From NCBI GenBank assembly GCA_946554445.1, contig CAMNSD010000001.1, positions 180,411 to 244,410 on the forward strand: a stretch of DNA of 64,000 bases. The letters run 5' to 3'. The position numbers and the translations under genes were made by a program. This document shows, in pieces, positions 16,789 through 36,664 of this stretch (its first letter is position 1; every line of letters starts with the position of its first letter). The DNA comes from an uncultured Lachnospiraceae bacterium. Lineage in GTDB: Bacteria; Bacillota; Clostridia; Lachnospirales; Lachnospiraceae. The notes below the pieces were generated by a model. The model worked only from the letters and a program-made list of their open reading frames with translations. It searched no databases and was not told where the DNA came from.

Positions 16789-16922
16789 TCCTTCATCATC
16801 ACGTAAGCCAGCCATTGTATCCTAAATCTAACAGAGGTCGCAAGCTTCAACAATACCCAATGGCAAACATAAGGTTTACCGCAAAAAGGCAGAAAATTCA
16901 ACACAGGAAAGGACGATACACT

Positions 16923-17843
16923 ATGTCAACACAAAATCTGGTAGAAACTCATAATCTCACAAAACAATACGGTAAAATCCGCTGTGTCAACAGCGTCAAT
17001 ATGCAGGTAACATCCGGCGCTATCTATGGTTTCTTAGGGCCCAACGGCGCCGGCAAATCCACCACCCTCAAGATGATCCTCGGCCTGGCCAGGCCTACGG
17101 ACGGTAATATTACCCTCTTTGGCATACCAGTCAATGAAAAAAACCGCATCAAACTCCTCACCCAGACCGGTTCCCTGATTGAATCTCCCAGTTACTACGG
17201 CCATCTGAGCGGAGAGGAAAATCTGCGCATTATCCAAACGCTCAAAGGCTGTTCCGCAAAGGATATTGATGAGGTATTAAAAATCGTCCGTTTAGACAGC
17301 GCCCGTCATAAACTTGTCAACCACTATTCTCTCGGCATGAAACAGCGTCTCGGTCTGGCCGCCGCCCTACTGGGATTCCCAAGGCTTTTAATTCTGGACG
17401 AACCTACAAACGGCCTGGATCCGGCCGGTATCCAGGAGATGCGGGAACTGATCCGCTCCTTGCCTGGCGCTTATGGTATGACCATCCTGGTCTCCTCCCA
17501 CCTGCTCAGTGAGATCGATCAGATGGCTGACCATGTAGGCATTATCCGTCAAGGGGAATTGGTCTACCAGAACACATTGGCTTCCCTGCATTCCCACGCC
17601 AAATCCCAAATTGCACTGCGCGTCAGCCACACGGCTATCGCCGCGGATCTGCTCCGCGAAGATGGAATCGACATTTCGCTGGAGGAAGATTACCTGCTGT
17701 TTCCCATGATAGATGACGCCTATGTAGCTAATCTGTGCAGGCGGCTCATCGTCCAGAATATATCTCTATACCGTGTAGAAAAACGAGAGACGAGTCTGGA
17801 AGATATTTTCTTATCCCTGACAGGAAAGGAGACCAGTTTATGA
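16923..17843 (+). CDS. ABC transporter ATP-binding protein (BcrA/LanF-like)
   Basis: GPNGAGKSTTLKMI, YSLGMKQRLGLAAALLG, LLILDEPTNGLDP; start at internal ATG. Confidence 0.94.
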   Translation: MSTQNLVETHNLTKQYGKIRCVNSVNMQVTSGAIYGFLGPNGAGKSTTLKMILGLARPTDGNITLFGIPVNEKNRIKLLTQTGSLIESPSYYGHLSGEENLRIIQTLKGCSAKDIDEVLKIVRLDSARHKLVNHYSLGMKQRLGLAAALLGFPRLLILDEPTNGLDPAGIQEMRELIRSLPGAYGMTILVSSHLLSEIDQMADHVGIIRQGELVYQNTLASLHSHAKSQIALRVSHTAIAADLLREDGIDISLEEDYLLFPMIDDAYVANLCRRLIVQNISLYRVEKRETSLEDIFLSLTGKETSL

Positions 17844-18592
17844 TCACACTCAAAACAGAATTTCAAAAGATAAAAAGAAGAAAAATCGGACTGACCATGT
17901 CAGTCCTGATCAGCGTACAGTTTGCATGGTTTCTCTGGGCCACGAAAAATCCAGATGAAAAAGAACTTGCCCAGGGTTGGATGAACCTGCTATATACCCT
18001 GCCATTACTCAATGTCATTATGATGCCTACCTTTATGTCCGTGCTTGCCTCCCGTCTCAGCGACCTGGAACACAAGGGCAATACTTATAAACAGCTTAAG
18101 ACGCTGCGCCGACCGGGCATTCTTTTTGACGCCAAGGCAATCTGCGGTCTGCTTTTCGTAGCCGCCATCTCCATTGGACAGATGCTCTTTTTGCTGATTT
18201 TAGGATACTGTCATCATTATACGGGAAATCCGGATATGCATTATTATGCACTATCCCTGATTCTAAACTTCGCCTGCTGTCTTGCCTTGTACCTGCTGCA
18301 GCTGGATCTGTCCCTGCTTTTCTTTAATCAGATGATCCCTCTGGTGATAGGACTGTGCGGCTCCCTGCTGGGATTAATATTGATGTACATTAAAATGTAT
18401 TCGTTTCTGCCCTGGGGCGGATTTTTATCCTGCACGCTGGTGGGAATGGATTGGAATATTGAAACCAGAGTCGTAACGCTCTTTTACAGGGAGCATTCTA
18501 TCATAGAATATTGCGCGATGGGAATGGTCTTTATTTGGATTATCGTTTTTTATACGACGGGCAGAATCGCATTCACACGCAAAGAAGTCTGA
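17840..18592 (+). CDS. ABC-2 type permease (lantibiotic-immunity MutE/EpiE-like)
   Basis: ATGA overlap with ATPase gene; six hydrophobic segments; second permease follows. Confidence 0.8.
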   Translation: MITLKTEFQKIKRRKIGLTMSVLISVQFAWFLWATKNPDEKELAQGWMNLLYTLPLLNVIMMPTFMSVLASRLSDLEHKGNTYKQLKTLRRPGILFDAKAICGLLFVAAISIGQMLFLLILGYCHHYTGNPDMHYYALSLILNFACCLALYLLQLDLSLLFFNQMIPLVIGLCGSLLGLILMYIKMYSFLPWGGFLSCTLVGMDWNIETRVVTLFYREHSIIEYCAMGMVFIWIIVFYTTGRIAFTRKEV

Positions 18593-18649
18593 CGAAATAA
18601 GGCAATCTAATGAAACAGAGAAGTCTCATGAAATGAGGAGGAAACATAC

Positions 18650-19387
18650 ATGAATACATCTTATCAAAAGGCTGTTAAAGCCGAACGATTAAAACTGAGA
18701 CGAAGCCCGGTATGGCTGGCTTTTTTTGCGCTGCCCATAATATCCGCCTTCTTCGGCACCGTCAATTACAAGATCAATATCTCTATCCTGAAGTCGGAAT
18801 GGTACAGTTTATGGAGTCAACACACCCTGTTTTTATGTTATTTCTTTATGCCCGCGCTGATCGGCACTTACTGTTCCTATCTTTGGCGTCTGGAACACAC
18901 GCACCACAACTGGAACAGTTTCCTGACCGCTCCTGTGCCAATCGTCAGCCTTTATCTAGGCAAACTAACGCAGGCCATATTCATGGCGGTATTGGGAAAT
19001 GCATGGATTTTCCTGTTGTTTTATGTATGCGGTAAATTTGCGGGCATCAAAAGTTCCTTTCCACCGGAAGCTTTGGAATGGTTCCTCTGCGGCCTCCTTG
19101 GTACAGTTGTCATCTGTTGTGTACAGCTTTTACTGTCCCTGATCATCCGTTCTTTCGCCATTCCCATCGGTATTGCTCTCTTAGGCGGCGTCCTGGGGCT
19201 TATGATGACCAACCGGGATCATGGGCTGGACTACCCTTATTCTATCTATTGTATGGGCATGCGCGCCAACAATCCCAGCATGGAAGTGAATATACCGACT
19301 CTGGTGATCAATTCCCTTGGTTATATCATCATCTTTGCCACCCTGGCAGTCCTGTATCTGCGCAAGCGGGAGATTGCTGCCAACTAA
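18650..19387 (+). CDS. ABC-2 type permease (lantibiotic-immunity MutG/EpiG-like)
   Basis: 245 aa, hydrophobic, same orientation as LanF/E-like genes. Confidence 0.8.
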   Translation: MNTSYQKAVKAERLKLRRSPVWLAFFALPIISAFFGTVNYKINISILKSEWYSLWSQHTLFLCYFFMPALIGTYCSYLWRLEHTHHNWNSFLTAPVPIVSLYLGKLTQAIFMAVLGNAWIFLLFYVCGKFAGIKSSFPPEALEWFLCGLLGTVVICCVQLLLSLIIRSFAIPIGIALLGGVLGLMMTNRDHGLDYPYSIYCMGMRANNPSMEVNIPTLVINSLGYIIIFATLAVLYLRKREIAAN

Positions 19388-20630: not shown

Positions 20631-20832
20631 AGAAACCTCCCGTTGCCTTTCATCCCATAATCTGTATATTACCAGCAAACGACACGACACCGCTCCTCTT
20701 CGCGTTCCTGACGCCTGCCGCCACACTCACATTTTATCTGATTCTTCCATGAATGACAAGTGCAAACCCTATGTCTGACACTGTGCTCATATCAATCTGA
20801 AAAGATAAAAACTTCTGACTCATAAATGCTGC

Positions 20833-20861
20833 TTGACACTTTTATAAAATAGGTACATAAT
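20833..20861 (+). promoter_or_regulatory. Sigma70-type promoter of the Mrp/Mbh-like operon
   Basis: TTGACA-17 bp-CATAAT. Confidence 0.7.
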
Positions 20862-20914
20862 AGCTACTGTTACTAATACCTCTTTTTAATAGGTAGAAAC
20901 TTTTTCGGAGGAAG

Positions 20915-21385
20915 ATGAAAATGTTTGTACTTTTTTTCCTTATTTGGGTTATTTTTAACGGTCAGTTTACTCTTGAAATCGCCCTCTTTGGCGTTGCTAT
21001 CGCCGGGGCAATGTACTGGTTTATCTGTAAATTCCTGAATTACAAGTTCAGTTACGATCTTTTTTTCTTAAAAAAGGCACCCCTTTTAATTCACTACTTG
21101 ATAACGCTCATTCTTGAAATCTTAAAGGCAAACGATGCCGTTTTTAAGATGATCTACAGCGCGCAATATGAACTGGAACCGGCCGTCGTTCATTTTAAAA
21201 CGAATCTGCGCACTACTTTTGCACGGGTGATCTTGGCTAATTCCATCACGCTGACGCCGGGTACGATCACGGTTTCCCTGGAAGATGATGTATACACGGT
21301 GCACTGTCTCGACAAGGAACTTGCCAAAGGTATTGATTCCTCTGTTTTTGTAAAACTTCTGGAAAGAATAGAAAGGATGGACTAA
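20915..21385 (+). CDS. mrpE: Na+/H+ antiporter subunit E (MrpE/MnhE)
   Basis: 156 aa; ...VILANSITLTPGTITVSLEDDVYTVHCLD. Confidence 0.93.
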   Translation: MKMFVLFFLIWVIFNGQFTLEIALFGVAIAGAMYWFICKFLNYKFSYDLFFLKKAPLLIHYLITLILEILKANDAVFKMIYSAQYELEPAVVHFKTNLRTTFARVILANSITLTPGTITVSLEDDVYTVHCLDKELAKGIDSSVFVKLLERIERMD

Positions 21386-21386
21386 C

Positions 21387-21722
21387 ATGGTATACCACAC
21401 GATCTATATTGCGATGTTGATTTTATTATCCTTCATGCTGTTAGCCTGCCTGATCCGTGCTGTCAAAGGCCCTCTGATTGCCGACAGGCTGATGGCTGTC
21501 AATATGATGGGCACTATGGTCATGGTCATGATCGCCGTCCTCGCGCTGATGCTGCAGCAGGGATACCTTGTAGATATTTGTCTCATCTATGCAATGATCA
21601 GCTTTCTGGCCGTCGTTGTCCTTTCCAAGGTATATATTGGCATCTACGAAGAAAAACAACGTGAGAAGAAATCTCACAAGGAGGAGACTGGAAAGGAGGA
21701 TCTGCCTGATGGAAACGCTTGA
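21387..21722 (+). CDS. mrpF: Monovalent cation/H+ antiporter subunit F
   Basis: GPLIADRLMAVNMMGTMVMVMI ... VDICLIYAMISFLAVVVLSK. Confidence 0.9.
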   Translation: MVYHTIYIAMLILLSFMLLACLIRAVKGPLIADRLMAVNMMGTMVMVMIAVLALMLQQGYLVDICLIYAMISFLAVVVLSKVYIGIYEEKQREKKSHKEETGKEDLPDGNA

Positions 21723-22098
21723 ATGGATTAAAATAGGTATCGGATGCACTTTTTTGCTCTGTGGGATTGCCATCTTTTTTACAGAATTGTTTGGCGTTTT
21801 TCACTTTAAATATGTGCTCAACAGGATGCACGCCGCTGCTATGGGCGACACGCTGGGAATCACTTCCTGCTTGATCGGGCTGATGATCTTTTCCGGTTTT
21901 AACTATACTACTTTAAAAATTTTATTGATCATTATTTTCTTATGGTGTGCCTCTCCGGTCTCTTCCCATGTGCTTGCAAGGCTGGAAGCTGCCACCAACG
22001 AAAATCTGTCCGAGCACTGTGAAATTTATGAAGATCTCAGCGTCCTCGAGCAGGAACTTGCCGACCGCGAAACGGCGGAAAAGGAGGAGATAGAATGA
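21709..22098 (+). CDS. mrpG: Monovalent cation/H+ antiporter subunit G
   Basis: GVFHFKYVLNRMHAAAMGDTLGI; overlaps mrpF end. Confidence 0.9.
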   Translation: METLEWIKIGIGCTFLLCGIAIFFTELFGVFHFKYVLNRMHAAAMGDTLGITSCLIGLMIFSGFNYTTLKILLIIIFLWCASPVSSHVLARLEAATNENLSEHCEIYEDLSVLEQELADRETAEKEEIE

Positions 22099-22400
22099 CG
22101 GCTTTTCAAATTATTTTGATGGGACTATTGATCATCTGTGCAGTCTCTGTCAGTTTTTCCAAAAATCTGCTGAATTCCGTCCTAATCTATATGTCTTTCA
22201 GTCTGGTTATGTCCTTATTGTGGATTTGTCTCGAATCCCCAGATCTTGCCATCACGGAAGCGGCCGTCGGCGCAGGGATCACCAGCGTCCTGTTTTTCGT
22301 GACGCTCAAGAAAATACATGCCATAAACGTGGCTGAAAAGGAAGAAGAACAGAAAGCTACTCAACGTAACTTGCCTGAGAATGGAGGAAAAGATGAGTAA
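22095..22400 (+). CDS. MbhD/DUF4040-like subunit (MrpA C-terminal part)
   Basis: SPDLAITEAAVGAGITSVLFFVTLKK motif. Confidence 0.85.
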   Translation: MTAFQIILMGLLIICAVSVSFSKNLLNSVLIYMSFSLVMSLLWICLESPDLAITEAAVGAGITSVLFFVTLKKIHAINVAEKEEEQKATQRNLPENGGKDE

Positions 22401-23373
22401 AAGAAAACCCGCAGAGGAATATCATAAAACATTTGCCTTTCATTTTTTCAGTTGGCTTCGAGGAGAAAAGGATCCATATCTGGGAAATGTGGAGATGAAA
22501 CCACAGAAGGAATATGAACCTGATCCGGAACTACATCTTCGTCATGAAAAGGAACACGACGCCATTCTGGATAAAGTTTACGATATGAAGCACAACAGGG
22601 CATTAGGGCTTTTTCACCGCCTGTACCAGGCTACAAGTATTCTTTTTTGTCTGTTCCTGATGGCACTCCTTTTGGTGACTATTTCTCATCTGCCTGCCAC
22701 CGGCGCAGCCGTAAAACCCGTCAACAATGAGGTGGCCGCCCGTTATATCGAAAGCGGACTGGAAGAGACCGGCGCCGTGAATATCGTGGCTGGTATGATC
22801 CTGGACTATAGGGCCTTCGACACCCTGGGGGAATCCCATGTCCTTTTTGTGGCTACCATTACGGTTTTGATCATGCTTCGTCTGGACAAGAATAAGAAAG
22901 GTGAGCCAAATCCTTTAACCAAAGATATGAACCCTAACGACCGTATCTACGAGCCCAAAAATGATGCTATCTTACAGATGGTGGCGTCTTTTCTGGTGCC
23001 GATCATTATCATCTTTGGCATTTATATCATATTGAACGGACATCTGGGCCCCGGCGGCGGATTTTCCGGCGGCGCAGTCATCGGCGCAGGACTGATCTTA
23101 TATCTGAACGCCTTTGGTTTCGGCAAAACGGAGCGGTTCTTTACGGAAAAGACTTATAAATGGATCTGTTTCTTTTCCCTCTCCTTCTATTGCCTGGCCA
23201 AAAGCTATTCCTTTTATACAGGCGCGAACCATCTGCACAGCATCATCCCCAAGGGAACGCCCGGCGCGATTCTCTCGAGTGGTCTGATCCTGCCCCTCAA
23301 TATTGCTGTGGGCCTGGTAGTAGCCTGTACGATGTATGCTTTTTATGCTATGTTCCGCAAAGGAGGATTTTAA
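22393..23373 (+). CDS. MbhE-like domain fused to MrpB (MnhB) domain
   Basis: VNIVAGMILDYRAFDTLGESHVLFVATITVLIML followed by MrpB-type GHLGPGGGFSGGAVIGAG. Confidence 0.85.
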   Translation: MSKRKPAEEYHKTFAFHFFSWLRGEKDPYLGNVEMKPQKEYEPDPELHLRHEKEHDAILDKVYDMKHNRALGLFHRLYQATSILFCLFLMALLLVTISHLPATGAAVKPVNNEVAARYIESGLEETGAVNIVAGMILDYRAFDTLGESHVLFVATITVLIMLRLDKNKKGEPNPLTKDMNPNDRIYEPKNDAILQMVASFLVPIIIIFGIYIILNGHLGPGGGFSGGAVIGAGLILYLNAFGFGKTERFFTEKTYKWICFFSLSFYCLAKSYSFYTGANHLHSIIPKGTPGAILSSGLILPLNIAVGLVVACTMYAFYAMFRKGGF

Positions 23374-23374
23374 G

Positions 23375-23749
23375 ATGGGCCCGAACCTTTGGATCAATTA
23401 TGGGGAGGCTGTAGCCGCAATCTTATTCTGTATTGGTTTCACCAATCTCCTCCTGCAGACTAACCTGATCAAAAAAATTATTGGCTTAAATATCATGGAC
23501 AGTGCAATCTATCTCTTTTTGGCGGAAAAAGGATATATTGCCGGCAGGACTGCGCCTATCGTCACAGATGGCGTGACCAATGTGGAAGCCTATATCAACC
23601 CCATTCCCAGCGGTCTGGTGCTGACCGGTATCGTGGTGTCTGTATCGGTGTCGGCGCTCATGCTGTCCTTGACCATACGTCTCTATATCAGATACCATTC
23701 CCTGGACCTGGATGAGATTGCCGCGCAGTTAAAAAAGGAGGGAAGATAA
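23375..23749 (+). CDS. mrpC: Antiporter subunit C (MrpC/NuoK-like)
   Basis: GFTNLLLQTNLIKKIIGLNIMDSAIYLFL ... ALMLSLTIRLY. Confidence 0.92.
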   Translation: MGPNLWINYGEAVAAILFCIGFTNLLLQTNLIKKIIGLNIMDSAIYLFLAEKGYIAGRTAPIVTDGVTNVEAYINPIPSGLVLTGIVVSVSVSALMLSLTIRLYIRYHSLDLDEIAAQLKKEGR

Positions 23750-25243
23750 GTGGATTTTGTCTGTAATTTTCCGTTTTTTTCCATCCTGATCAGCCTCTTT
23801 TCGGGCACCATATGTTCTATCCTTCCGGAGAAAGCTGCCAAAGCGGTAAACCGGATAGTGATCGCAGCAGTAGGCGTCATGTCTGGGATATTGCTTTTGT
23901 ATCTGCTGGGTACAGGTGAAAGTTTCGTCTACTGGATGGGACACTTTCCGGCCCCCTGGGGCAATGAAATCCGGGCTGGCGTCCTGGAAGCGGGCATGGC
24001 ATTGTTTTTCTGTATCATCATGTATTTGTCCATGGCCGGCGGCGCGCACAAACTCTTTGACGAGGTGGAAGAGAGCAAACACAACCTGTACTATATCCTG
24101 ATCAATCTGCTCTTGAGTTCCCTGCTGGCGCTGGTCTACACCAACGATATGTTTACGGCCTATGTCTTTGTGGAGATTAACACGATCTCCGCCTGCGGCC
24201 TGATCATGATCCGTCAGGTGGGCCGCACGATCGAGGCCGCCGTGCGTTATATGATCATGAGTCTGCTGGGCTCAGGACTTTTCCTGTTTGGTCTGTGCAT
24301 CATGTACGATCTGACCGGACATCTTTTGATGAGCAATATCAAAGAATCCGTGGCTCTCCTGATACAGAATGGAGAATATCAGATTCCCCTGATCGTCTCC
24401 GTAACTTTGATGTGCATTGGTCTGTGTATTAAGAGCGCGCTGTTTCCTTTTCATGCCTGGCTGCCGGATGCCTACGGCTACTCCACAGTATCTTCGGCGG
24501 CAATCCTGTCGAGCCTGGTATCCAAGGGATATATCTTCCTGTTAATCAAGATTATCTACCGAGTTATCGGTTTTGATATTTTTAACAGTACCAGGATCAT
24601 CGATGTGCTGTTTGTCTTCGGACTGATGGGGATGATCTTCGGCTCCTTAAGCGCCATTAAGGAAAATGACATCCGCCGGATGATCGCTTATTCTTCCGTG
24701 GCGCAGATTGGTTATATCTATATGGGCTTTGGTATGGGTACGCAGGCCGGTATGGTGGCCAGTGTCTTCCATATCCTCTCCCATGCAGCCACCAAGTCCC
24801 TGTTATTTATTGCTGCCATCGGCCTGACGGAGGTATCGGGCGGCAGTCGTAAGTTTATCGACCTGACCGGGGCCGGATACCGCAATAAATGGGCAGGTGT
24901 GGCTTTCACCGCCGGTTCCCTGTCAATGGTGGGCGTACCCTTGTTTTCAGGCTTTATCAGCAAGTTGCTGTTCGCCCAGGCCGCCGTACAGGTGGAGGGC
25001 AAAATGTTGGCGACACTAATCGTCTTAGGCATCAGTACGGTCTTAAACGCCATCTATTTTATGAAAACAGTGATTCGCATCTATGCCACAACAGGGGATA
25101 CTTCCTATCCTTGTATTACCTTTAAGGATATGAAAGTCCATGCGATAGTATTGATATTTTTTATTTTGTTAAATATAATCCTGGGCGTCAACTCCCAGCC
25201 AATCGTGAATATGATCGAGCAGGGACTTGCCATGTTCGCATAA
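23750..25243 (+). CDS. Proton-conducting antiporter-like subunit (MrpD/NuoN family), copy 1
   Basis: 497 aa, GTG start; FVEINTISACGLIMI, IKSALFPFHAWLPDAYGYS. Confidence 0.9.
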   Translation: MDFVCNFPFFSILISLFSGTICSILPEKAAKAVNRIVIAAVGVMSGILLLYLLGTGESFVYWMGHFPAPWGNEIRAGVLEAGMALFFCIIMYLSMAGGAHKLFDEVEESKHNLYYILINLLLSSLLALVYTNDMFTAYVFVEINTISACGLIMIRQVGRTIEAAVRYMIMSLLGSGLFLFGLCIMYDLTGHLLMSNIKESVALLIQNGEYQIPLIVSVTLMCIGLCIKSALFPFHAWLPDAYGYSTVSSAAILSSLVSKGYIFLLIKIIYRVIGFDIFNSTRIIDVLFVFGLMGMIFGSLSAIKENDIRRMIAYSSVAQIGYIYMGFGMGTQAGMVASVFHILSHAATKSLLFIAAIGLTEVSGGSRKFIDLTGAGYRNKWAGVAFTAGSLSMVGVPLFSGFISKLLFAQAAVQVEGKMLATLIVLGISTVLNAIYFMKTVIRIYATTGDTSYPCITFKDMKVHAIVLIFFILLNIILGVNSQPIVNMIEQGLAMFA

Positions 25244-25255
25244 GGAGGTGATGAC

Positions 25256-26725
25256 ATGTATCCGATTCTTTTACCCATACTCTTTCCCATCCTCGCCGGG
25301 CTCTGTCTCCTGGTCTATAGAAAGGACCTGGAAAGAAAACTGCTCACCGGAATCACAGGAAGCTGTCTTGTCATCACCGGCGCACTGGTAATCAGCGTGC
25401 TGGCTCTGGCAAAGAAAAGCCTTATCCTGTTTTATCTGACCGAAACACTGCCAATTTATTTCCAGATTGATGAGATAAGTGTCATCTTTTCTGTTCTGAC
25501 AGTGGTCGTCTTTGTCTGTGCAGGCTTTTTTGCTTTTGCCTATATGAAACATGAACAAAAGGAAAAACGTTACTATGGGTTTTATCTGATAGCATTCGGC
25601 GTGTTAAACGGGCTCTGCTTTGCAGGAAACCTAATCACCTTTTATCTGTTTTTTGAATTGCTGACGCTTTCCTCGTTTCCTCTGGTACTGCACACAGGCA
25701 CCAGGGAAGCAATTATGGCCGGATTAAAATATTTATTTTACTCCCTGTGCGGCGCCTATGCATCCCTGTACGGTATTTATTTTCTCTATCGGCACTGCGA
25801 TACTTTGACTTTCACGGCAGGAGGCATTTTACAGGCTTCTCCGGCATCACCGGACGGCCGTTTCCTGCTGCTTGTCGCTTTTTTGATGATTTTGGGCTTC
25901 GGTGTAAAGGCCGGCATGTTTCCTATGCACGCCTGGCTCCCCACCGCCCACCCGGCAGCACCGGCACCAGCATCCGCCGCTCTCTCCGCTGTCATCGTCA
26001 AGGCCGGCGTGCTGGCCCTGATTCGGGTTATTTACTATATATTTGGCGCAGACTTTCTGCGGGGAAGCTGGGTGCAGACCGCCTGGCTTACCCTGGCACT
26101 AGTCACTGTCTTTATGGGCTCCATGCTGGCCTACCGGGAACCAGTCCTAAAAAAAAGACTGGCCTACTCCACCGTCAGCCAGCTTTCCTATATCCTCTTT
26201 GGCCTGGCGGTAATGGATCAGGACGCTTTTATGGGCGGACTCCTGCATGTACTGGCGCACGGCTTTATCAAAGGCACTCTCTTCCTGATTGCCGGAGCGA
26301 TCATCTTCACCACCGGCAAAACGAGAGTGGACGAACTGCACGGCATCGGTAAGGAAATGCCACTTACCATGTGGTGTTATACTATCGTATCCCTGGGGCT
26401 GATTGGCATCCCGCCCACAGGCGGCTTTGTCAGCAAATGGTATCTGGCCATCGGCGGACTGGCTGGCGATATTGGTATCTTCCGCTATATCGGCCCGGCT
26501 GTTTTGCTAATCAGTGCACTGCTCACCGCGGGCTACCTGCTGCCGCTTACCATCCGGGGCTTTTTCCCTGGTGCAGACTACGACTACAATGCATTACAGA
26601 AACGGGAACCGGCGCGGCTTATGACAATACCGATTCTATTTATGACAATACTGTCGGTTTTAATTGGTCTGTTTCCCAATATCATCACCGATTACCTGAC
26701 GAAATTCGTCAGCAGTCTATTATAA
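25256..26725 (+). CDS. Proton-conducting antiporter-like subunit (MrpD/NuoM family), copy 2
   Basis: 489 aa; FFELLTLSSFPLVLHT, VKAGMFPMHAWLPTAHPAAPAPASA. Confidence 0.9.
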   Translation: MYPILLPILFPILAGLCLLVYRKDLERKLLTGITGSCLVITGALVISVLALAKKSLILFYLTETLPIYFQIDEISVIFSVLTVVVFVCAGFFAFAYMKHEQKEKRYYGFYLIAFGVLNGLCFAGNLITFYLFFELLTLSSFPLVLHTGTREAIMAGLKYLFYSLCGAYASLYGIYFLYRHCDTLTFTAGGILQASPASPDGRFLLLVAFLMILGFGVKAGMFPMHAWLPTAHPAAPAPASAALSAVIVKAGVLALIRVIYYIFGADFLRGSWVQTAWLTLALVTVFMGSMLAYREPVLKKRLAYSTVSQLSYILFGLAVMDQDAFMGGLLHVLAHGFIKGTLFLIAGAIIFTTGKTRVDELHGIGKEMPLTMWCYTIVSLGLIGIPPTGGFVSKWYLAIGGLAGDIGIFRYIGPAVLLISALLTAGYLLPLTIRGFFPGADYDYNALQKREPARLMTIPILFMTILSVLIGLFPNIITDYLTKFVSSLL

Positions 26726-26741
26726 GAAAGGAGAAGCCGTT

Positions 26742-28205
26742 ATGATCATCTGTATTATTTTACTGCCCATCATTGCCGGGATACTGGTTCCTCTGCTTCC
26801 CTTTCACAAAAGATGCCATAAGGAGATTTTCCTGGAGGGCGCCGTTATCCTAAACAGTATTCTGGTATGGTATCTGCTGTTACATCATTCCGAGAGCACC
26901 TTCCTGCTGGCCCATTTTACTGGTGACCTAAACATCAGTTTCCGGGTGGACGGCATGAGTATGGTATTCGCCGGCCTGGTCTCCGGGCTGTGGCCTTTTG
27001 CCACCCTCTATGCCTTTGAATACATGACAAAGGAAAAACATGAGAATTCCTTTTTTCTCTTTTATACCATGACCTATGGCGTGACACTGGGCATCGCTTT
27101 TGCCGCCAATCTGTTGACCATGTATTTCTTCTACGAACTGCTGACTTTGGTCACCGTTCCCCTGGTCATGCACACTCTGACCAGAGAGGCCGTCCTGGCC
27201 AGCCGCAAATATCTCTATTATTCCCTGGGCGGCGCCGCCTTTGCCTTCATCGGCCTGATCATGGTCATTGTCTATGGCAACACGACGGACTTTATCCTGG
27301 GCGGTGTGCTGGATCTGGCAAAGATTGGAGACAGGACCAATGTCTTATTATTAATCTATGTTATGGCCTTTATGGGCTTCGGCGTCAAAGCAGCCGTCTG
27401 CCCCTTTAACTCCTGGCTCCCCCAGGCGGGTGTGGCTCCCACGCCTGTCACTGCCCTTTTGCATGCAGTAGCTGTCGTGAAATCAGGCGCTTTTGCCATT
27501 ATCCGGCTGACCTATTACAGCTTTGGTACAGAATTTCTGCGGGGCACCTGGGCCCAAACTACTGTTATGATTGTGGTGATGTTTACCATCGTATATGGCT
27601 GCAGCCGCGCAGTCAAAGAAACCCACATCAAGCGCCGACTGGCATATTCCACCATAAGCAATCTGTCTTACATTCTTTTTGGGGCAGTTATTATGACACC
27701 GCTTGGGCTGACAGGAGCCATCACCCACCTGGTATTTCATGCTGTGATGAAGATTTCTTCCTTCTTTTGCGCCGGCGCCATCATGCATCAGACAGATAAG
27801 CGCTATGTACATGAACTAAACGGTCTGGGCTATAGGATGCCCTGCGTATTCGGTATTTTTACGATTTCCGCTCTTGCCCTTATGGGCGTACCGGGGCTGG
27901 CCGGCTTTATCAGCAAGTGGAACCTGGCGCAGGCGGCAGTGGACAGTCAGAATCCTCTGGCCTATGGGGGCATTGCCTGTCTGCTGATATCAGCATTGTT
28001 GACGGCAATCTACATGCTCTCCATTGTGGTGCGTGCTTTCTTTCCCGGGAAAGATTTCGATGACAGTTCCCTACAGGATGCACACGATCCCAACTGGAAA
28101 ATGCTCTTACCGCTTTTTGTATTTACCGTGTTTATTATTTTATTTGGCATCCATTCCCAGTCGATTGTAAATTTCTTTTATGACGTAGCTGCCGGGGTAT
28201 ATTAA
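26742..28205 (+). CDS. Proton-conducting antiporter-like subunit (MrpD/NuoM family), copy 3
   Basis: 487 aa; FFYELLTLVTVPLVMHT, VKAAVCPFNSWLPQAGVAPTPVTALLHAVAVVKSG. Confidence 0.9.
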   Translation: MIICIILLPIIAGILVPLLPFHKRCHKEIFLEGAVILNSILVWYLLLHHSESTFLLAHFTGDLNISFRVDGMSMVFAGLVSGLWPFATLYAFEYMTKEKHENSFFLFYTMTYGVTLGIAFAANLLTMYFFYELLTLVTVPLVMHTLTREAVLASRKYLYYSLGGAAFAFIGLIMVIVYGNTTDFILGGVLDLAKIGDRTNVLLLIYVMAFMGFGVKAAVCPFNSWLPQAGVAPTPVTALLHAVAVVKSGAFAIIRLTYYSFGTEFLRGTWAQTTVMIVVMFTIVYGCSRAVKETHIKRRLAYSTISNLSYILFGAVIMTPLGLTGAITHLVFHAVMKISSFFCAGAIMHQTDKRYVHELNGLGYRMPCVFGIFTISALALMGVPGLAGFISKWNLAQAAVDSQNPLAYGGIACLLISALLTAIYMLSIVVRAFFPGKDFDDSSLQDAHDPNWKMLLPLFVFTVFIILFGIHSQSIVNFFYDVAAGVY

Positions 28206-28232
28206 GCAACGCAGCACAGAAACGAGGACAAT

Positions 28233-30365
28233 ATGAGTATATTACTTTACAGTACAATTTTGCTGCCCATGGCGGCGGCCATTCCATGTTATGCGATCGG
28301 GCGGTCACATAAAGCTGCAAGAGACTACCTGGCCGATGTCGTGACAGGCATCACCTTCATCCTGTGCCTCTGTCTAGCCATACAGACAGTTACCAACCGC
28401 AATGCCTCCGGAATTCTGATGGAGATTCCTTATATCTGCGGCATGGGACTGCACTTTACCCTGGACGGTTTCCGGGGCCTCTATGGAACGATTGCCGCTT
28501 TTATGTGGTTCATGAGCACCCTCTTTTCCAGGGAATATTTTAAACATTACCGGAACCGCAATCGGTATTATCTGTTCCTGCTTTTGACCTTGGGCGCTAC
28601 GGAAGGCGTATTTTTCTCGGCGGACTTCTTCACTACTTTTATTTTCTTTGAAATTATGTCCTTCACCTCCTATGTCTGGGTGGCGCATGATGAGAGAGAG
28701 GAATCTCTGCGGGCCGCTGGCACCTATCTGGCTGTGGCCGTGATTGGCGGCCTAGTGATGTTAATGGGTATCTTCCTTTTATATGATGTGACGGGCACTT
28801 TATTCTTCCGCGACCTGACAGGTGTGTCAGATAGCTTTATAAATAATCCTGCTAACCTTACGCAGCTCTGGACAGCCGGCTTGTGTCTGCTGTTTGGATT
28901 CGGCGCCAAAGCCGGCGCCTTTCCCCTGCATATCTGGCTGCCAAAGGCCCACCCCGTGGCGCCTGCACCGGCATCCGCCCTGCTGTCCGGTATCCTGACC
29001 AAGGCAGGCATGTACGGCATCCTCATTCTGACCGCCTATCTTTTCCTGGGCTCTTCCCTCTGGGGCGGACTGATTCTGGCCATCGGTGTATGTACCATGG
29101 TGATTGGCGCCGTGTTGGCCCTACTATCCATGGATTTAAAAAGGACGCTGGCCTGTTCTTCGGTATCTCAAATTGGCTTTATCCTGACAGGCGTCGGCAT
29201 GTCCGGCCTGCTTGGCACGGAAAATACACTGGCTATGCGCGGAAGCCTGCTTCATATGGTGAATCACTCGCTGATTAAACTGGTACTCTTTATGGCGGCG
29301 GGTATAGTTTTTATGAACGTGCACAAACTGGACTTGAACGAAATCCGTGGTTTCGGCCATAAGAAACCGCTCCTCAATTATATTTTCCTGATGGGCGCCC
29401 TGGGGATCGGCGGCATCCCCCTCTGGAACGGTTATATCAGTAAAACTTTGATTCACGAAAGTATTGTGACATATATCAACTTAAGCCACTCCGATGCAGT
29501 CACAGGTCTTTTCTCCGCCTCATTCATGAAAGGTGTGGAATGGATCTTCCTTGCAAGCGGCGGCCTGACCATTGCCTATATGGCCAAACTCTATGTCTGC
29601 CTTTTCCTGGAAAAAAACAGCAATCCGACCATACAGGCTGCATATGACAATATGGGCAAACACTATATGAATAAAGTAAGCGCTTCTGTTCTGGCTTTGA
29701 GTGCCACATTACTGCCCCTTATGGGATTTTTCCCGGGTATTATCATGAACGGTATCGCCGATATGGGACAGGAATTTCTGCAGATAACCTCTCTGTCAGA
29801 GTCGTTTTCATACTTCTCCCTGACAAATTTAAGAGGCGCTGCTGTCTCCCTGGCCATCGGGGCATTGGTTTACTTTACCGTAGTACGGCTTTGGCTGATG
29901 AAGCAGACGGATTCAAATATTCCTGCCCGGATATACATTGATTGTCTTCCCCGTTGGATGGATCTGGAAGAATTACTTTACCGGCCTGTCCTGCTAAATA
30001 TCCTGCCGGCTACTTTTGGTATGATCTGCCGGCTTTTGGACAGCCTTGTAGACACCATAGTGGTAGTGCTCCGCAAAACACTCTTCCGGGACAGTAAGCT
30101 GCCCCATGAATTACCCCAGGGCACTGCCTTAACCCATATGTGCGCCGGAATTGCCGCAAGTTTTCAATGGCTTGGCAACCGGACCATTCATCGAAAGCAT
30201 CCCAGAAACAAGGATTACGATCATAAATTTGCCCTGTTTTATGAGGAGTTCAGTGAGAACAGCATGATGATTGCCAGAAGCATGTCCTTTGGCCTGTTGC
30301 TCTTCTGCGTCGGACTGATTCTGACAGTTGTCTATCTATTTATTAAGGATGTGTTTGGCATGTGA
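28233..30365 (+). CDS. Large proton-conducting antiporter-like subunit (MrpA/NuoL/HyfB-like)
   Basis: 710 aa; FFEIMSFTSYVWVAHD, AKAGAFPLHIWLPKAHPVAPAPASALLSGILTKAG, C-terminal extension with final TM. Confidence 0.88.
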   Translation: MSILLYSTILLPMAAAIPCYAIGRSHKAARDYLADVVTGITFILCLCLAIQTVTNRNASGILMEIPYICGMGLHFTLDGFRGLYGTIAAFMWFMSTLFSREYFKHYRNRNRYYLFLLLTLGATEGVFFSADFFTTFIFFEIMSFTSYVWVAHDEREESLRAAGTYLAVAVIGGLVMLMGIFLLYDVTGTLFFRDLTGVSDSFINNPANLTQLWTAGLCLLFGFGAKAGAFPLHIWLPKAHPVAPAPASALLSGILTKAGMYGILILTAYLFLGSSLWGGLILAIGVCTMVIGAVLALLSMDLKRTLACSSVSQIGFILTGVGMSGLLGTENTLAMRGSLLHMVNHSLIKLVLFMAAGIVFMNVHKLDLNEIRGFGHKKPLLNYIFLMGALGIGGIPLWNGYISKTLIHESIVTYINLSHSDAVTGLFSASFMKGVEWIFLASGGLTIAYMAKLYVCLFLEKNSNPTIQAAYDNMGKHYMNKVSASVLALSATLLPLMGFFPGIIMNGIADMGQEFLQITSLSESFSYFSLTNLRGAAVSLAIGALVYFTVVRLWLMKQTDSNIPARIYIDCLPRWMDLEELLYRPVLLNILPATFGMICRLLDSLVDTIVVVLRKTLFRDSKLPHELPQGTALTHMCAGIAASFQWLGNRTIHRKHPRNKDYDHKFALFYEEFSENSMMIARSMSFGLLLFCVGLILTVVYLFIKDVFGM

Positions 30366-30418
30366 TAAAAGGGTGCCGCTCATTCATCGAATTTGATGAT
30401 TTTGCGGCACCCCTTTAT
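30366..30418. terminator. Bidirectional intrinsic terminator
   Basis: AAAAGGGTGCCGC ... GCGGCACCCCTTTAT. Confidence 0.88.
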
Positions 30419-30441: not shown

Positions 30442-33400
30442 CTACGCTTCTTCGGCATCTGGAACAACTCTTCTTTTCTTTTTCTTCCTTCTACTTACCA
30501 TGATTATCACGAGCAGGGCAATAACTGCCACGCCCCCGATTATGATATAGACCAGATAATCCATAATCCCGCTTTGCACATTGCAGACTACAATCTCAGC
30601 CTCATTTCCATCAATGGTAAACAGGTGATATATTCCCATCATCTCTGTTTCCATTTCAGTCCATCCGCTGCCGTTCTTTAAATAAATCACTACCCCCTCG
30701 GTCTGGCCCTGCGGCGCCTGATATCGAATCTGATGTTTTTCGCCGCCATCATCAGGACAAACAATCTGCCAGTGTTCCAATACATCTTCCGGTTCCATAC
30801 CTGCTATGACAATTCCCGCTGTATCGCACTTTGTATCTTGCAATTGGTCTTCCGCCTTGAAGGCGCCATCCACCAGAAGCGCCGACTGTCCATTATCCCG
30901 CATCTGGCTTCCTGCCAGCGTCGTCAGATAACGCACATATTCTACTGTCACATCCTCATCCGACAGGACTCTATCAATCTCCTTGATATCCCAGTCGGCA
31001 TAGAATCCTTCCTTCACCGGTATATTCGGATACTGTTCTGTTCGCAGACTGCTGCCATAAGGACAGTCCAAACGATAGACTTCCTCCTCATCCGCATAAA
31101 ACGTAATGCGCATCATGCGAAATCTTGCCGGCAATCCTTCTATCTCCAATAACTCTCTATACGTCAGAGGCTCCGCCTTGCCGCTGTAACTAATCCTATC
31201 AATACCCGCAATCTCTTCCGACACGAAATAATTATTCAGCACATCTTCTTCACTGTTCACCTGACCTGCGATAGCTCCATAGAAAGCTGTCGCCTCCTTG
31301 ACACAGACCATGGCAATGCTGTTCTCTATCCCATTTCCATAACCCGCAATCCCTGCTACGTATTCCCCGCCGGATACCATACATTTGGCATAGCCGTTAG
31401 TAATATGGGACAATGACTGTCCCGCAATGCCACCCACATAGTCTCCTGATTCGCTCTCTATCCTGCCATAATTTTCACATCGCAAGATAGTTCCCATCTC
31501 CTGAAGACCGGCAATACCGCCTGCATAACTCTTCTGTGCCGTCACTGTGCCGTCATTGACATTCTGCCTGAGAACGCATTTTGTCAGGAATGTGGAATTG
31601 GCCCTGGCGTCCTCGATACCAGTCACATCACCTTCCAAGTCAAAGTCATATTCTATGGCCATTGTCCCCGCAATACCCGACACATTGATATCTGCTTTAA
31701 CAATTCCGGTATTCACACAATCAGCGATGGTGGCGTCTATGCTTTCCTCCGCATTTTCCTGGGAATTATCCTCATAGATGCCGGAGTAGTCCATATCCAA
31801 AACCCCATCCAGCGCATCTGTATACAACAGCATAATCTCACTGAACTGATCGTTGATATCCGTCAAGTCTTCTCCCAGTAAATCGCTGGAAGAAGACATC
31901 TCATCGTTCAAGTAGCCCATATTCTCTGAGATACTTTTCAGATTAGAATTCAGACTTCCCGTGGTAGAACGATAATCTCCTCCCAACTGTGGAAATGCAA
32001 TGTCCCCCTTCTCATTCAGCGTTCTAAAGATGTCCTTAACCTGGCCGCCTGCCGTTTCCAGATTTTCCGTGGCATCTTTGGCCGAATCAATGGCATCGCC
32101 CAGACTTTCCCTGGCGTCCTCTGTCATCTCATCGGTATGCCTTGTGGCAATATCCGAAATGGTATCCAGATAATCTCTCATGTCTTTCTCGTAGCTTTCC
32201 GTACTGCCGGACCATTCTATATAACGATCATCTGCATAATTGGAAGCCCCCTGTTCAGCATCAGACTTCTCATCTTTCATCATCTGCGCCGCATCGTCCA
32301 GAAGTTCCCGGTCTAATTCACCCTGTTCCCCATCGCCGGGAAATGAAGCCGTATCGTCCTCATCCATCCGATCCGGGTATCCAAGCCAGTGTACCCACTC
32401 TGTCACTTCTATATAGTCTTTCGGACTTCCTTTTGCACTAGCCCAATCCTTATCCAGACCATCCACTTCTACAATTGGTCTCAAATCAAGTTCATGGGGA
32501 TCGTTATTCTTGTATTTATCTTCTGAAAATCTAATTTGATCAATACAGTAATTCTTATACGCCCTCATATAATCGGCGTAATCTTCGGCATGCTTCTCCG
32601 ACGCCTCCTTCATTGCATCTTTCGCCGTGTTGTATTCTTCCTGTTCCTCCGGCGTCATATACTGATAGATATCCATGGAATCAACCATATCTGCCAATTC
32701 TTTGGCCGCATCCTTCACATTGCCGGCCGCATCCTTGCCCTGATCTATCACGCCATCGTCTTTGGCCGTCTCCTCTATCACATAGTCAAAACGGTTGATC
32801 GCTTCATTGACGGAATCCACCATCCCGTCCGTCCACTCCACCGTCCTATCGGCAAGAAAATAAGTGTCATCCAACGCCTTGTCGGCAAAGTCCTGAATCA
32901 CCGTCAGCCGGTTAGAAAGCGTGTCAGATTCATTCCCCGCGTCATCCAGCATCTTCCCAATCTGATCGTGCAGGACATCGATATGATCCGATAACTGTCT
33001 CACAATATCCTCGGACAGGTCTACGGCGATATAAGGCTCCGCCTGCCCTACAATACCGCCCACATCCTTACGGCCATAGACAATACCTGTATTTTCACAG
33101 GCATGTATATAACCGGACTGCCGGCCCGCGATACCGCCCACGTTATAGCCCACGTGCTCATAGCCGATCGTGCCGGTATTTTTACACCCCTGTATGATAC
33201 CCGTGGAAAGTCCTGCAATACCGCCCGTATCCACATTGCTCTGAACAGCCGACGCTTTCTCCGCTCTGTCGCTGTTATCCTCCGGATTCAAAAAACCGGC
33301 CTTGTACTGCTCCAGATTGATATCTTCCAAAGATTTTCCTTTATCTTCGTTAAAAATATTCACATCCGCCTGATTGAGACAGCCCACAATATTACCCACA

Positions 33401-34170
33401 TTATGTCCCGCAACACCGCCGCTGTAATGTGCTCCCGTAATCGTGCCGCTCGCTTTACACTCCATGAGGATACCGCTCAGTTCATTGATTCCCACAATGC
33501 CGCCCACATAGTCGTTGCCCTCTATGACACCCTCAAAGGCGCAGTTTAAAAGAATACCTCTGTTATCCCCTACAATGCCGCCTACCACCATCTGTTTACC
33601 GGAGGGCCTGACCGTCCCCTCCACTCTCAGATTCGCAATAACCGCCGTAGGCTGGGTATAGCAGAACAATCCCACATAAGACGTGGAATCCCGAACTGCC
33701 AGTCCGCTTATGGTATGTCCCTGTCCGTCAAAATATCCGCCAAAAGTCGGTATGGATACAAACTCACCGCCGGAAATTATAATGTCCTCTTCCAGATACA
33801 CTTTCTTATTCTGGGACCAAGTATCCAGCCAGCAATTTCTGGAAAACGCCTGCAGGTCTTCCAAATCTTTTATATGTATCTCTACCCACTCTATCTCTTC
33901 ATCATTATAGGAATCAATCGTCTCGTTGGCGTCCTCTACGCTGGTGACTTCCTCCTCCACGGTAGTCTCCTCTTCCTCCGCCCAGACATTCATCACCGGC
34001 AGAATACCAATCAACACCGCCAGCATCAAAGACATTCTTCTCTTGTGATGTTGTAAAAATTTATTTCTACGCCTGTCCGAGTCCGCAAAGCGGATCTCAA
34101 AATCAAAATTCCTACGCCTACCCGAATCCGCAAAGCGGATCTCGTGATCGAACTTGTTCGATCTATTCAT
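30442..34170 (-). CDS. Large GLUG-repeat surface protein with helical middle region and C-terminal TM anchor
   Basis: 1242 aa; repeated GGIVGxxxG/GGIAGxxxG motifs, signal-like MSLMLAVLIGILPVMNVWA, C-term TM + KKKKRR; start uncertain (may be internal Met46). Confidence 0.85.
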   Translation of the reverse strand: MNRSNKFDHEIRFADSGRRRNFDFEIRFADSDRRRNKFLQHHKRRMSLMLAVLIGILPVMNVWAEEEETTVEEEVTSVEDANETIDSYNDEEIEWVEIHIKDLEDLQAFSRNCWLDTWSQNKKVYLEEDIIISGGEFVSIPTFGGYFDGQGHTISGLAVRDSTSYVGLFCYTQPTAVIANLRVEGTVRPSGKQMVVGGIVGDNRGILLNCAFEGVIEGNDYVGGIVGINELSGILMECKASGTITGAHYSGGVAGHNVGNIVGCLNQADVNIFNEDKGKSLEDINLEQYKAGFLNPEDNSDRAEKASAVQSNVDTGGIAGLSTGIIQGCKNTGTIGYEHVGYNVGGIAGRQSGYIHACENTGIVYGRKDVGGIVGQAEPYIAVDLSEDIVRQLSDHIDVLHDQIGKMLDDAGNESDTLSNRLTVIQDFADKALDDTYFLADRTVEWTDGMVDSVNEAINRFDYVIEETAKDDGVIDQGKDAAGNVKDAAKELADMVDSMDIYQYMTPEEQEEYNTAKDAMKEASEKHAEDYADYMRAYKNYCIDQIRFSEDKYKNNDPHELDLRPIVEVDGLDKDWASAKGSPKDYIEVTEWVHWLGYPDRMDEDDTASFPGDGEQGELDRELLDDAAQMMKDEKSDAEQGASNYADDRYIEWSGSTESYEKDMRDYLDTISDIATRHTDEMTEDARESLGDAIDSAKDATENLETAGGQVKDIFRTLNEKGDIAFPQLGGDYRSTTGSLNSNLKSISENMGYLNDEMSSSSDLLGEDLTDINDQFSEIMLLYTDALDGVLDMDYSGIYEDNSQENAEESIDATIADCVNTGIVKADINVSGIAGTMAIEYDFDLEGDVTGIEDARANSTFLTKCVLRQNVNDGTVTAQKSYAGGIAGLQEMGTILRCENYGRIESESGDYVGGIAGQSLSHITNGYAKCMVSGGEYVAGIAGYGNGIENSIAMVCVKEATAFYGAIAGQVNSEEDVLNNYFVSEEIAGIDRISYSGKAEPLTYRELLEIEGLPARFRMMRITFYADEEEVYRLDCPYGSSLRTEQYPNIPVKEGFYADWDIKEIDRVLSDEDVTVEYVRYLTTLAGSQMRDNGQSALLVDGAFKAEDQLQDTKCDTAGIVIAGMEPEDVLEHWQIVCPDDGGEKHQIRYQAPQGQTEGVVIYLKNGSGWTEMETEMMGIYHLFTIDGNEAEIVVCNVQSGIMDYLVYIIIGGVAVIALLVIIMVSRRKKKKRRVVPDAEEA
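34067..34163. repeat. Two-unit 45-bp-period repeat plus adjacent ATCGAAC-TT-GTTCGAT palindrome
   Basis: CTACGCCTRYCCGARTCCGCAAAGCGGATCTC at 34067-34098 and 34112-34143; palindrome 34146-34163. Confidence 0.85.
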
Positions 34171-36664
34171 GGTCCGCCACCTCCCTGCTCGCTAATTCCG
34201 CAGACACCGTGTCCGCCATCTGTCTGTATTCTTCCTCCGAAAGCTCCGTCACATCACCGGCCTCCACATAGGCGCTTACATTACCTCTGACAATGGCCTT
34301 CATCGTACCGGTCACAACACCGTCAATCCTGCCGCGCACCAGACCGTCCACCTTCATCAGCCCGGTCGCATTCTTCGTGCGGATCGGCATGTTCATCACA
34401 AAGGCCGTCTTCTCTATAATCTTATCACCCACCAGAAGAATCTGCGGCAAAACAAACATGGTTATCAGAATAGAAATCGAAGTCCCTCGTCCCAAAGATT
34501 TTCCAATACCGAATATCGCTGCATTGGAAGTCAGCTTACCAATCAGGAACCCGGCCACCACCATCATGGTTCCGGATGTAATGATTGTCGGAAAAGCCTG
34601 ATTCATGGCATCTATGATGGACTGTTTCCTGCCGTTGGTCTCCCGCAGTTCCATATACCGTCCCGCTATGACGATGGCATAGTCGATATTGGCGCCCATC
34701 TGAATCGAACTGACAATCAGATAGGACATAAAGAAAATGTTGTCATGCTGCAGTGCCGGCACTGAGAAGTTCAGCCAGATACACCCCTGAATCACCGCAA
34801 TCAAAAGCACCGGCATACCTGCGGATTTAAAGGTAAACAATAATACCACAAGCACCGTCAAGATAGACAGGATATTGGTCACCAGATTGTCCCGCCCGAA
34901 AGTCTTTTGCAAATCGTACTGGCTCACTGACTCGCCGCAGACCAGAACCTTACCGCTATAATATTTCCCCGCAATCTCATGTATTTTATCGAGGAAAGCA
35001 AAGGTCTCCGCACTCTCCTCCGGGAGCGTCAGATAGACCAGCATACGGCTGTAATTTTCTCCCTGCAGCTGATTCTTGGCAAAGTTCATCTGCCGGTAGG
35101 CGTCATCCAGGGTATCCTGCAATTCATCATCCAACGTGACGTACCCTTCCTCCACCTCTTCATAGACAAACATAAACATGTCGATCAGAGACACCTTATA
35201 TTCCGGAAGTCCATTGACTACTTTCGCATAATCCTCATCATTCACAGCATACGCCGCATAGACCAGTTCCGCCACCTCATAATCCAGATCAATCAATTCC
35301 GAGAACTGTCTGGGCGTCAGCTTATCCGTCAGGCAATAACCGTCCATCGCCTCTATATTGGTAAGCCCCATAGTATAATCTACTTCTGGGCAGGCCTCCA
35401 AATCTTCTAACAGTTTCGCTTCTTTCTCATAATCTCCCGCCGGTACAATGAGTGCCACCATATTGCTGGCGCCAAAATTTTCCGTCTGCATCTCCTCTGT
35501 TTTCTGGATGCTGTTCTGAATCGGCGGCGTGATCGTTGTATCGCCAAACACATACGGACAATCCTTCGACACCATATAGGCTCCCACGATCACTACTACA
35601 AAAAGCGGCGCCACAACATGCCTCGTTGCGTAATCCAGTTTGCCCACAAACGGGATATCCGGGATGAAATTCTTATGCTTCGTGCTGTCCATCCACTTGG
35701 AAAACAACATAATCACACCCGGCATCAACAGGAACACAGATCCCAACGCCAGGAAGATAGATTTGATCAGACACATGGACAAATCCGGCCCCATCTTATA
35801 CTGCATAAAGCCCATGGCTATCAGACCGCCTATGGTGGTCATCGAACTGCCGCAGATTTCCGGGATTGCTTTGCTCAGGGCAATAATGATGGCTTCTCTG
35901 GATTCCAGATTCGCATGTTCTTCTTTATATCGGTTAAGGAGAATAATCGCATAGTCCACCGACAGCGCAAGCTGTAATACCACAGTAACCGAATTGGACA
36001 CAAAGGAGATCGTCCCAAAAATAAAGTTGGTCCCCATCTGCAGGATCGCCGCCGCCACAAACGTGAGCAAAAGCACCGGCACCTCCGCATAAGCCTGTGA
36101 TGTGAGCAAAAGCACCGTCACCACCACCACAGCTACTAAGACAACGATGACATTCATCTCCTCCGCGATCAGTTCCGCCTCGATGTCTCCCAATGTCGTA
36201 GACAGATAATAATCATATCCATCGAGTTTTTCCTTAACACGATCCAGTACTTCCAGACACCGGTCATCTTTCTCGTCATAGTCAAAAGTGACATTATAAT
36301 AGGAGGAACCATTATAATAATGTTCCTCCGTATCGTCATAATCCACCGAAAAAATTCCCGGCATAAATTCCAAATCGCGCCCAATCGTCTGTGCCTGCTC
36401 GTACGACACATTGGCAACCATTATATTACAGGTTCCATATGTAATAAATTCCTGTTCCATTAAATCCAGGCCCTGCTTCGTCTCCGTAGAGTCCGGCAGA
36501 TAATGGGACATAGAATTCTCCACATTAACCCAGTTTCTGGAAATGGCAGAAAAAATGATCAAGATCCCAAACAACAGGAAAAACAGATTGCGCTTATCCA
36601 CAATAAACCCGCAGATCTTGAGCATTGCCTGATTGCCGCCCTTTTTTGCCTTTTGTTCATTCAT
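34163..36664 (-). CDS. MMPL/RND family transporter
   Basis: 833 aa; multiple TM segments, SSD-like GANIDYAIVIAGRYMELRE and SVDYAIILLNRYKEE. Confidence 0.92.
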   Translation of the reverse strand: MNEQKAKKGGNQAMLKICGFIVDKRNLFFLLFGILIIFSAISRNWVNVENSMSHYLPDSTETKQGLDLMEQEFITYGTCNIMVANVSYEQAQTIGRDLEFMPGIFSVDYDDTEEHYYNGSSYYNVTFDYDEKDDRCLEVLDRVKEKLDGYDYYLSTTLGDIEAELIAEEMNVIVVLVAVVVVTVLLLTSQAYAEVPVLLLTFVAAAILQMGTNFIFGTISFVSNSVTVVLQLALSVDYAIILLNRYKEEHANLESREAIIIALSKAIPEICGSSMTTIGGLIAMGFMQYKMGPDLSMCLIKSIFLALGSVFLLMPGVIMLFSKWMDSTKHKNFIPDIPFVGKLDYATRHVVAPLFVVVIVGAYMVSKDCPYVFGDTTITPPIQNSIQKTEEMQTENFGASNMVALIVPAGDYEKEAKLLEDLEACPEVDYTMGLTNIEAMDGYCLTDKLTPRQFSELIDLDYEVAELVYAAYAVNDEDYAKVVNGLPEYKVSLIDMFMFVYEEVEEGYVTLDDELQDTLDDAYRQMNFAKNQLQGENYSRMLVYLTLPEESAETFAFLDKIHEIAGKYYSGKVLVCGESVSQYDLQKTFGRDNLVTNILSILTVLVVLLFTFKSAGMPVLLIAVIQGCIWLNFSVPALQHDNIFFMSYLIVSSIQMGANIDYAIVIAGRYMELRETNGRKQSIIDAMNQAFPTIITSGTMMVVAGFLIGKLTSNAAIFGIGKSLGRGTSISILITMFVLPQILLVGDKIIEKTAFVMNMPIRTKNATGLMKVDGLVRGRIDGVVTGTMKAIVRGNVSAYVEAGDVTELSEEEYRQMADTVSAELASREVADHE

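Follow-up and report, generated by a model that had tools for sequence, protein, structure and literature searches.

The 64,000-nucleotide stretch of DNA analysed here (hereafter, the window), from contig CAMNSD010000001.1 of an uncultured Lachnospiraceae bacterium, carries a ten-gene operon on the + strand (20915-30365). Its product is very probably a multisubunit cation/proton antiporter of the stand-alone Group 3 Mrp type that has four antiporter-like subunits (ALS) and serves to join the Na+ and H+ gradients of the cell. Gene content, gene order, conservation, key residues, the absence of a NuoB- or NuoH-type partner and phylogeny are read directly from the sequences.

The operon begins with the small subunits, MrpE (20915-21385, 156 aa; PF01899, 98.9 bits), MrpF (21387-21722, 111 aa; PF04066, 53.5 bits), MrpG (21709-22098, 129 aa; PF03334, 75.8 bits), an MbhD-like protein (22095-22400, 101 aa; PF13244, 72.6 bits; aligned with 6cfw_D and 6u8y_D), a fusion of MbhE and MrpB (MnhB) with PF20501 and PF04039 in a single open reading frame (ORF) (22381-23373, 330 aa, or 326 aa from the ATG at 22393), and MrpC (23375-23749, 124 aa; PF00420, 63 bits; best solved relative 6u8y_G). 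The starts of MrpG (21709) and of the fusion (22393 or 22381) are refined ones. Four large subunits follow, numbered by gene order and all matching PF00361: ALS1 (23750-25243, 497 aa, 177.7 bits), ALS2 (25256-26725, 489 aa, 202.8 bits), ALS3 (26742-28205, 487 aa, 182.2 bits) and ALS4 (28233-30365, 710 aa, 181.5 bits). All ten ORFs exceed the curated Pfam cut-offs (MNHE, MrpF_PhaF, PhaG_MnhG_YufB, MbhD, MbhE plus MnhB, Oxidored_q2 and four times Proton_antipo_M), the gaps between genes are at most 27 bases or the genes overlap, and a GGAG-type ribosome-binding site is found at nearly every gene start. The best NCBIfam matches of the operon proteins are Na+/H+ antiporter or related families, all below the curated cut-offs, and the proteins are therefore superfamily members outside any named subfamily.

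The residues needed for ion translocation are retained. Alignment shows that the Glu of transmembrane helix (TM) 5 and the Lys of TM7, TM8 and TM12 that form the proton path are present in all four ALS (E142, K228, K259 and K405 in ALS1; E134, K218, K249 and K394 in ALS2; E132, K216, K247 and K392 in ALS3; E140, K226, K257 and K404 in ALS4); in L051, a distant member of the family, Asn takes the place of Lys in TM8 of ALS3. The cation-path residues of the solved structures are kept as well, namely ADR in MrpF (with the Asp of its GPxxADR motif), TEAAVGAG in MbhD, DYRAFDT in MbhE and GHLGPGGGFSGG in MrpB, and MrpC carries the Asp found in MbhG. A preliminary description of this DNA, made from the letters alone, had reported the same gene order and the four large subunits behind the small ones, and had noted the TM5 Glu and Lys motifs in each of them; the Pfam and ORF checks agree with the former, and the alignment confirms the latter while adding Lys-TM8 and Lys-TM12.

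Group 3 stand-alone Mrp systems have no mrpA and one or more mrpD (PMC8415708), and stand-alone Mrp operons with multiple mrpD genes are a described class (PMC8415708, PMC5703873). The window operon has this architecture: mrpA is absent, the four ALS are separate ORFs with neither MbhD nor MbhE-MrpB fused to an ALS, MrpE, MrpF, MrpG, MrpC and the MrpB-domain proteins are all present, and no redox module occurs in the operon or as a dedicated partner. The NuoB-like and NuoH-like subunits of MBH, MBS, Ech and formate hydrogenlyase are missing, as is the NADH- or quinone-linked redox arm of a four-ALS complex I; the fused MrpA plus single MrpD of the classical Groups 1 and 2 is not found either, there being four ALS with no fusion. 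Since multi-mrpD stand-alone operons have been described, the Mbh-like order pointed out in the preliminary description is the ordinary Group 3 order and no sign of a lost hydrogenase. Judged by its genes, the operon is a variant of the Group 3 stand-alone Mrp and no new class, and it is not the relic of a hydrogenase operon.

The preliminary description had also found no catalytic module at the locus and had left two alternatives, a stand-alone complex or a membrane module pairing with a partner encoded elsewhere. When the neighbouring genes in the window were inspected, neither the operon nor its surroundings proved to contain a module of hydrogenase or oxidoreductase genes. In the genome, which is 96% complete, the search for Ech, Mbh or formate hydrogenlyase catalytic genes returned no PF01058 (NuoB-type) and no PF00146 (NuoH-type) gene; both searches give matches in 11 of 14 control genomes. 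The only PF00361 genes of the genome are the four ALS of the operon. A partner elsewhere is thus unsupported for the [NiFe]/complex-I types, because neither a NuoB- nor a NuoH-type gene was found in this 96% complete genome, and the stand-alone alternative is favoured by the Group 3 architecture, the conservation of the operon on its own and the intact ion-path residues.

The same comparison was extended to 120 genomes of the family, 18 of which carry the operon (the window genome included). PF01058 is absent from 17 of the 18, and no association of the operon with PF01058 genes was found across the 120 genomes. The sole exception (G010) has an Ech-type locus on another contig, separate from the operon and with its own large ALS. 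Nor, among the loci of this type that were read, does any have a NuoB-, NuoD- or NuoH-type gene next to the operon. These results bear on the proposal that the operon encodes a membrane arm whose redox module (hydrogenase, formate hydrogenlyase or complex-I-like) is located elsewhere in the genome. In its favour, the gene order is that of the membrane part of Mbh and Mbs, and among solved chains ALS1 is by sequence nearest MbsH (6u8y_H) and ALS4 nearest MbhH. For a NuoB/NuoH-type partner the proposal is nonetheless largely refuted, and we regard it as highly improbable.

Scanning GTDB genome contigs with the ALS4 alignment gave at least 596 matching stretches, and the best 80 were inspected. 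The order E-F-G-MbhD-EB-C-ALS1-ALS2-ALS3-ALS4 is complete in 71 of these best 80; in the other nine the contig ends at most about 7 kb upstream of ALS4. Most of the 80 records are titled Lachnospiraceae, with Parablautia muri and Hominisplanchenecus murintestinalis among the named ones, and the ten-gene order also occurs in most of 17 further family genomes. Across the phylum, an ALS4-type gene was detected at E <= 1e-80 in 60 of 399 genomes. We read 40 of these loci, chosen from the strongest matches; most hold a stand-alone Mrp operon in which the ALS number two to four, mostly two or three in other Clostridia, and nearly all encode MbhE and MnhB in separate genes. Three-ALS examples are found on plasmid EAL2_808p of Peptoclostridium acidaminophilum and in the haloarchaeon Halomontanus rarus. 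Three loci (L171, L183 and L197) show a rearranged Mrp order, B-C-ALS-E-F-G-MbhD-MbhE-ALS-...-ALS4. For a candidate phylum, an annotated set of MrpEFGBBBCD plus MrpDD is on record (PMC6305446), and the open-licence literature searched contained no account of four-ALS Mrps from Lachnospiraceae. The four-ALS operon is apparently common in gut Lachnospiraceae and uncharacterised there in that literature.

The phylogeny of the ALS points to how the fourth one arose. In a 64-row maximum-likelihood tree, with which a larger quick tree agrees, ALS1 groups with the first-position subunits of other clostridial Mrps (support 100/99) and ALS4 with the last-position subunits (99/95), while ALS2 and ALS3 group together (100/99) as sisters nested in the middle-position group. 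In Lachnospiraceae the set of four ALS therefore goes back to a doubling of the middle one. Outside the family, locus L167 carries an ALS2-type copy but lacks ALS3. The extra subunit is a different one in other clusters with four ALS (L168, L178 and L189), which suggests that sets of four evolved more than once. Grouping the window ALS4 with classical MrpA was rejected (approximately unbiased test, p-AU 2e-74), as was grouping ALS1 with classical MrpD (p-AU 2e-7); a grouping of the ALS4 clade with MrpA/NuoL is compatible with the data (p-AU 0.27). The preliminary description had called for such a phylogeny and had held that its idea of an unusual complex would fall if the subunits clustered as ordinary MrpA and MrpD or if the operon were a standard variant. 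The subunits form position-specific clades apart from the classical ones, and in this respect the idea stands, but the multi-mrpD stand-alone Mrp was already a described class.

The additional ALS could also be accounted for by an ordinary Mrp in which they have no special role, for example as partly redundant subunits of alternative three-ALS complexes. In its favour, two-ALS and three-ALS operons do occur in related Clostridia, and ALS2 and ALS3 are paralogous copies of a single position. Redundancy is argued against because ALS2 and ALS3 are both kept in place across the family with nearly complete key residues, and the ALS are not copies of the classical subunits, as the two rejected groupings indicate. 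We consider this explanation unlikely.

For the stand-alone four-ALS antiporter, the membrane order of the subunits, the ion, the direction and the stoichiometry are inferred. MrpE, MrpF, MrpG, MbhD, MbhE-MrpB and MrpC would form a cation-translocating block, on which ALS1 would dock, with ALS2 and ALS3 next and ALS4 closing the far end. The AlphaFold model of ALS4 (predicted local distance difference test, pLDDT, 79) has a 14-TM core, TM15, a long helical region and a C-terminal TM, and its best solved structural match is MrpA of Bacillus pseudofirmus (7qru_A). The modelled helical region is similar to the lateral helix found in NuoL and MrpA, and the C-terminal helices of ALS4 may act as a brace, as in those proteins. 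H+ movement through the four ALS would be coupled to the opposite movement of Na+ (or K+) in the small-subunit block. The solved Mrp complexes (PMC7419157) and the stand-alone Mrp of Pyrococcus furiosus (PMC8415708) provide the analogy for an H+ flow along the ALS row coupled to a cation flow, and by this analogy such a coupling between the ALS and the small subunits is most likely. In an organism with Rnf and a Na+-type c-subunit motif, the complex would then pass energy between the gradients of Na+ and H+ and contribute to the control of internal pH and Na+. If one H+ passes through each ALS per cycle, the H+ to Na+ ratio would be higher than in a two-ALS Mrp, and Na+ could be expelled even when the proton gradient is weak. 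A more specific version is put forward as speculative: in gut Lachnospiraceae, doubling the middle ALS would have raised the gear ratio of the Mrp to about four H+ per Na+, in parallel with the complex I forms that have four ALS, and the complex would be akin to an energy-converting unit of Rnf and Mrp in clostridia.

Several points weigh against this proposal. The lateral-helix region of ALS4 is modelled at a pLDDT of 38-65, which is low confidence. The C-terminal length of the last ALS was considered as a ruler for ALS number and was discarded, having no clean relation to it across the clusters. In vivo data from Pyrococcus furiosus suggest that Na+ enters and H+ leaves at low pH (PMC8415708), the opposite of the direction favoured by a high H+ to Na+ ratio. 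No measured activity for any four-ALS member was found in the literature searched, and the placing of the four ALS together in a single complex is inferred from how the genes are ordered and conserved.

A link to Rnf and to Na+-based energetics is suggested by the genomes. The ATP synthase c subunit of the window genome carries GVGQG and VAETTGLY, which we take to be the Na+-binding motif of the c subunit as in the Ilyobacter c-ring. The same genome has rnfCDGEAB, located on contig C5 and away from the Mrp operon, not directly upstream of it as in Rnf-linked clusters. Together, Rnf and the Na+-type motif point to a Na+-based energy economy in which the Mrp may join the Na+ and H+ gradients. 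Outside the family, 12 of the 40 phylum loci (from about eight families) have a complete rnfCDGEAB immediately upstream of the mrp genes and co-oriented with them, a count that gives no estimate of frequency as the loci were drawn from the strongest matches. These joined loci (L170, L175-L177, L179-L182, L184, L191, L193 and L194) have mrpEFG-MbhD-MbhE-B-C-ALS downstream, with one short gene between in L175. No description of a joined rnf-mrp cluster was found in the open-licence literature searched.

It is conceivable, if doubtful, that the complex is a functional unit with the Rnf ferredoxin:NAD+ oxidoreductase, in which Rnf would build a Na+ (or H+) gradient and the multi-ALS Mrp would convert it, possibly with the two in contact. 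The joined clusters of other families and the rnf genes of the window genome agree with such a unit, as does the high expression of rnf and mrp in Methanosarcina acetivorans, where mrp is induced on acetate (PMC2838876). In the family of the window, however, the two operons lie apart, and Rnf is not enriched with the Mrp operon, being present in 16 of 18 operon-bearing genomes and in 104 of 120 family genomes. As Rnf is common there with or without the operon, their co-occurrence adds no support for the link. Moreover, gene order is no proof of contact, and the adjacency may reflect one ancestral cluster.

Other arrangements of rnf and ALS genes were observed among the phylum loci. In L174 (genome G215) and L185 (G128), rnfCDGEAB is followed by only two ALS genes, the RnfB frame being short in L185, and these are apparently Rnf with bare antiporter subunits. 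No MrpG was found anywhere in genomes G215, G128, G403 and G448; G279 and G426, of the same genus, have MrpG near ALS4, which suggests a loss of MrpG in the former. In L186 and L192 a lone RnfG-like (FMN-binding) gene is directly upstream of mrpE, and the other rnf genes are absent from the stretches read there.

Upstream of mrpE, a sigma-70-type promoter-like site (TTGACA-17-CATAAT, 20833-20861, + strand) matches the consensus at 11 of 12 positions, the assignment being by consensus match. A regulatory RNA was sought upstream of mrpE, and Rfam gave no match in the window, nor with permissive settings in 20640-20960. The operon ends at a hairpin (~30365-30418; minimum free energy -29.6 kcal/mol, z = -6.4) between it and a convergent gene, likely a two-way terminator, which a simple terminator scan missed because its loop is too long for that scan. 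The hairpin that the preliminary description took for a strong terminator is therefore real, and its strength is likely but unproven, the T-run being short. The nearest neighbours of the operon are a ketopantoate-reductase-like gene, ABC-2 transporter genes, and genes for a GLUG-motif protein and an MMPL protein. The latter two (30442-36664, - strand; 1242-aa GLUG-motif protein and 833-aa MMPL-family transporter) likely form a single operon convergent with the Mrp operon. Upstream (16815-19387, + strand), an ABC transporter ATPase and two ABC2_membrane_4 permeases resemble lantibiotic-immunity or bacitracin-type exporters.

In complex I and its relatives it has long been asked whether the number of ALS determines how many protons are moved. 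Non-redox antiporters that occur naturally with two, three or four ALS would allow the H+ to Na+ ratio to be measured directly and free of electron transfer, and the rnf-mrp clusters of other Clostridia hint at the way in which anaerobes connect Na+- and H+-based energetics.

Among known systems, the stand-alone Group 3 Mrp of P. furiosus (mrpEFGBB'CD, PF1147-1153; PMC8415708) shares the E-F-G-B-B'-C-D order and the absence of both mrpA and a redox module, but it has one ALS where the window operon has four. It uses Na+ and affects pH-dependent growth, in a cell that has a Na+-dependent ATP synthase (PMC8415708). The three-ALS Mrps of P. acidaminophilum and H. rarus share E-F-G-MbhD(-E)-B-C followed by the ALS genes, and the ALS of P. 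acidaminophilum group by position with those of the window; the window lineage differs in having duplicated the middle ALS and fused MbhE to MrpB. The classical Group 1/2 Mrps of Bacillus, Anoxybacillus and Dietzia (7qru, 6z16 and 7d3u) have a homologous set of parts, including the MrpA that best matches the ALS4 model, although their MrpA is one fused protein and they have two ALS, whereas the window has four and no fused MrpA. MBH and MBS of P. furiosus (6cfw and 6u8y) share the membrane gene order and the small subunits, and carry hydrogenase-type redox subunits that the window operon does not have. As far as the citing papers describe them, the '2M complex I' and 'green complex I' (Chadwick et al. 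2018 as cited in PMC7419157, PMC9040806) offer the closest parallel for four ALS, antiporter-like subunits having been added up to four in a complex that is redox-driven, while the window complex has no redox part.

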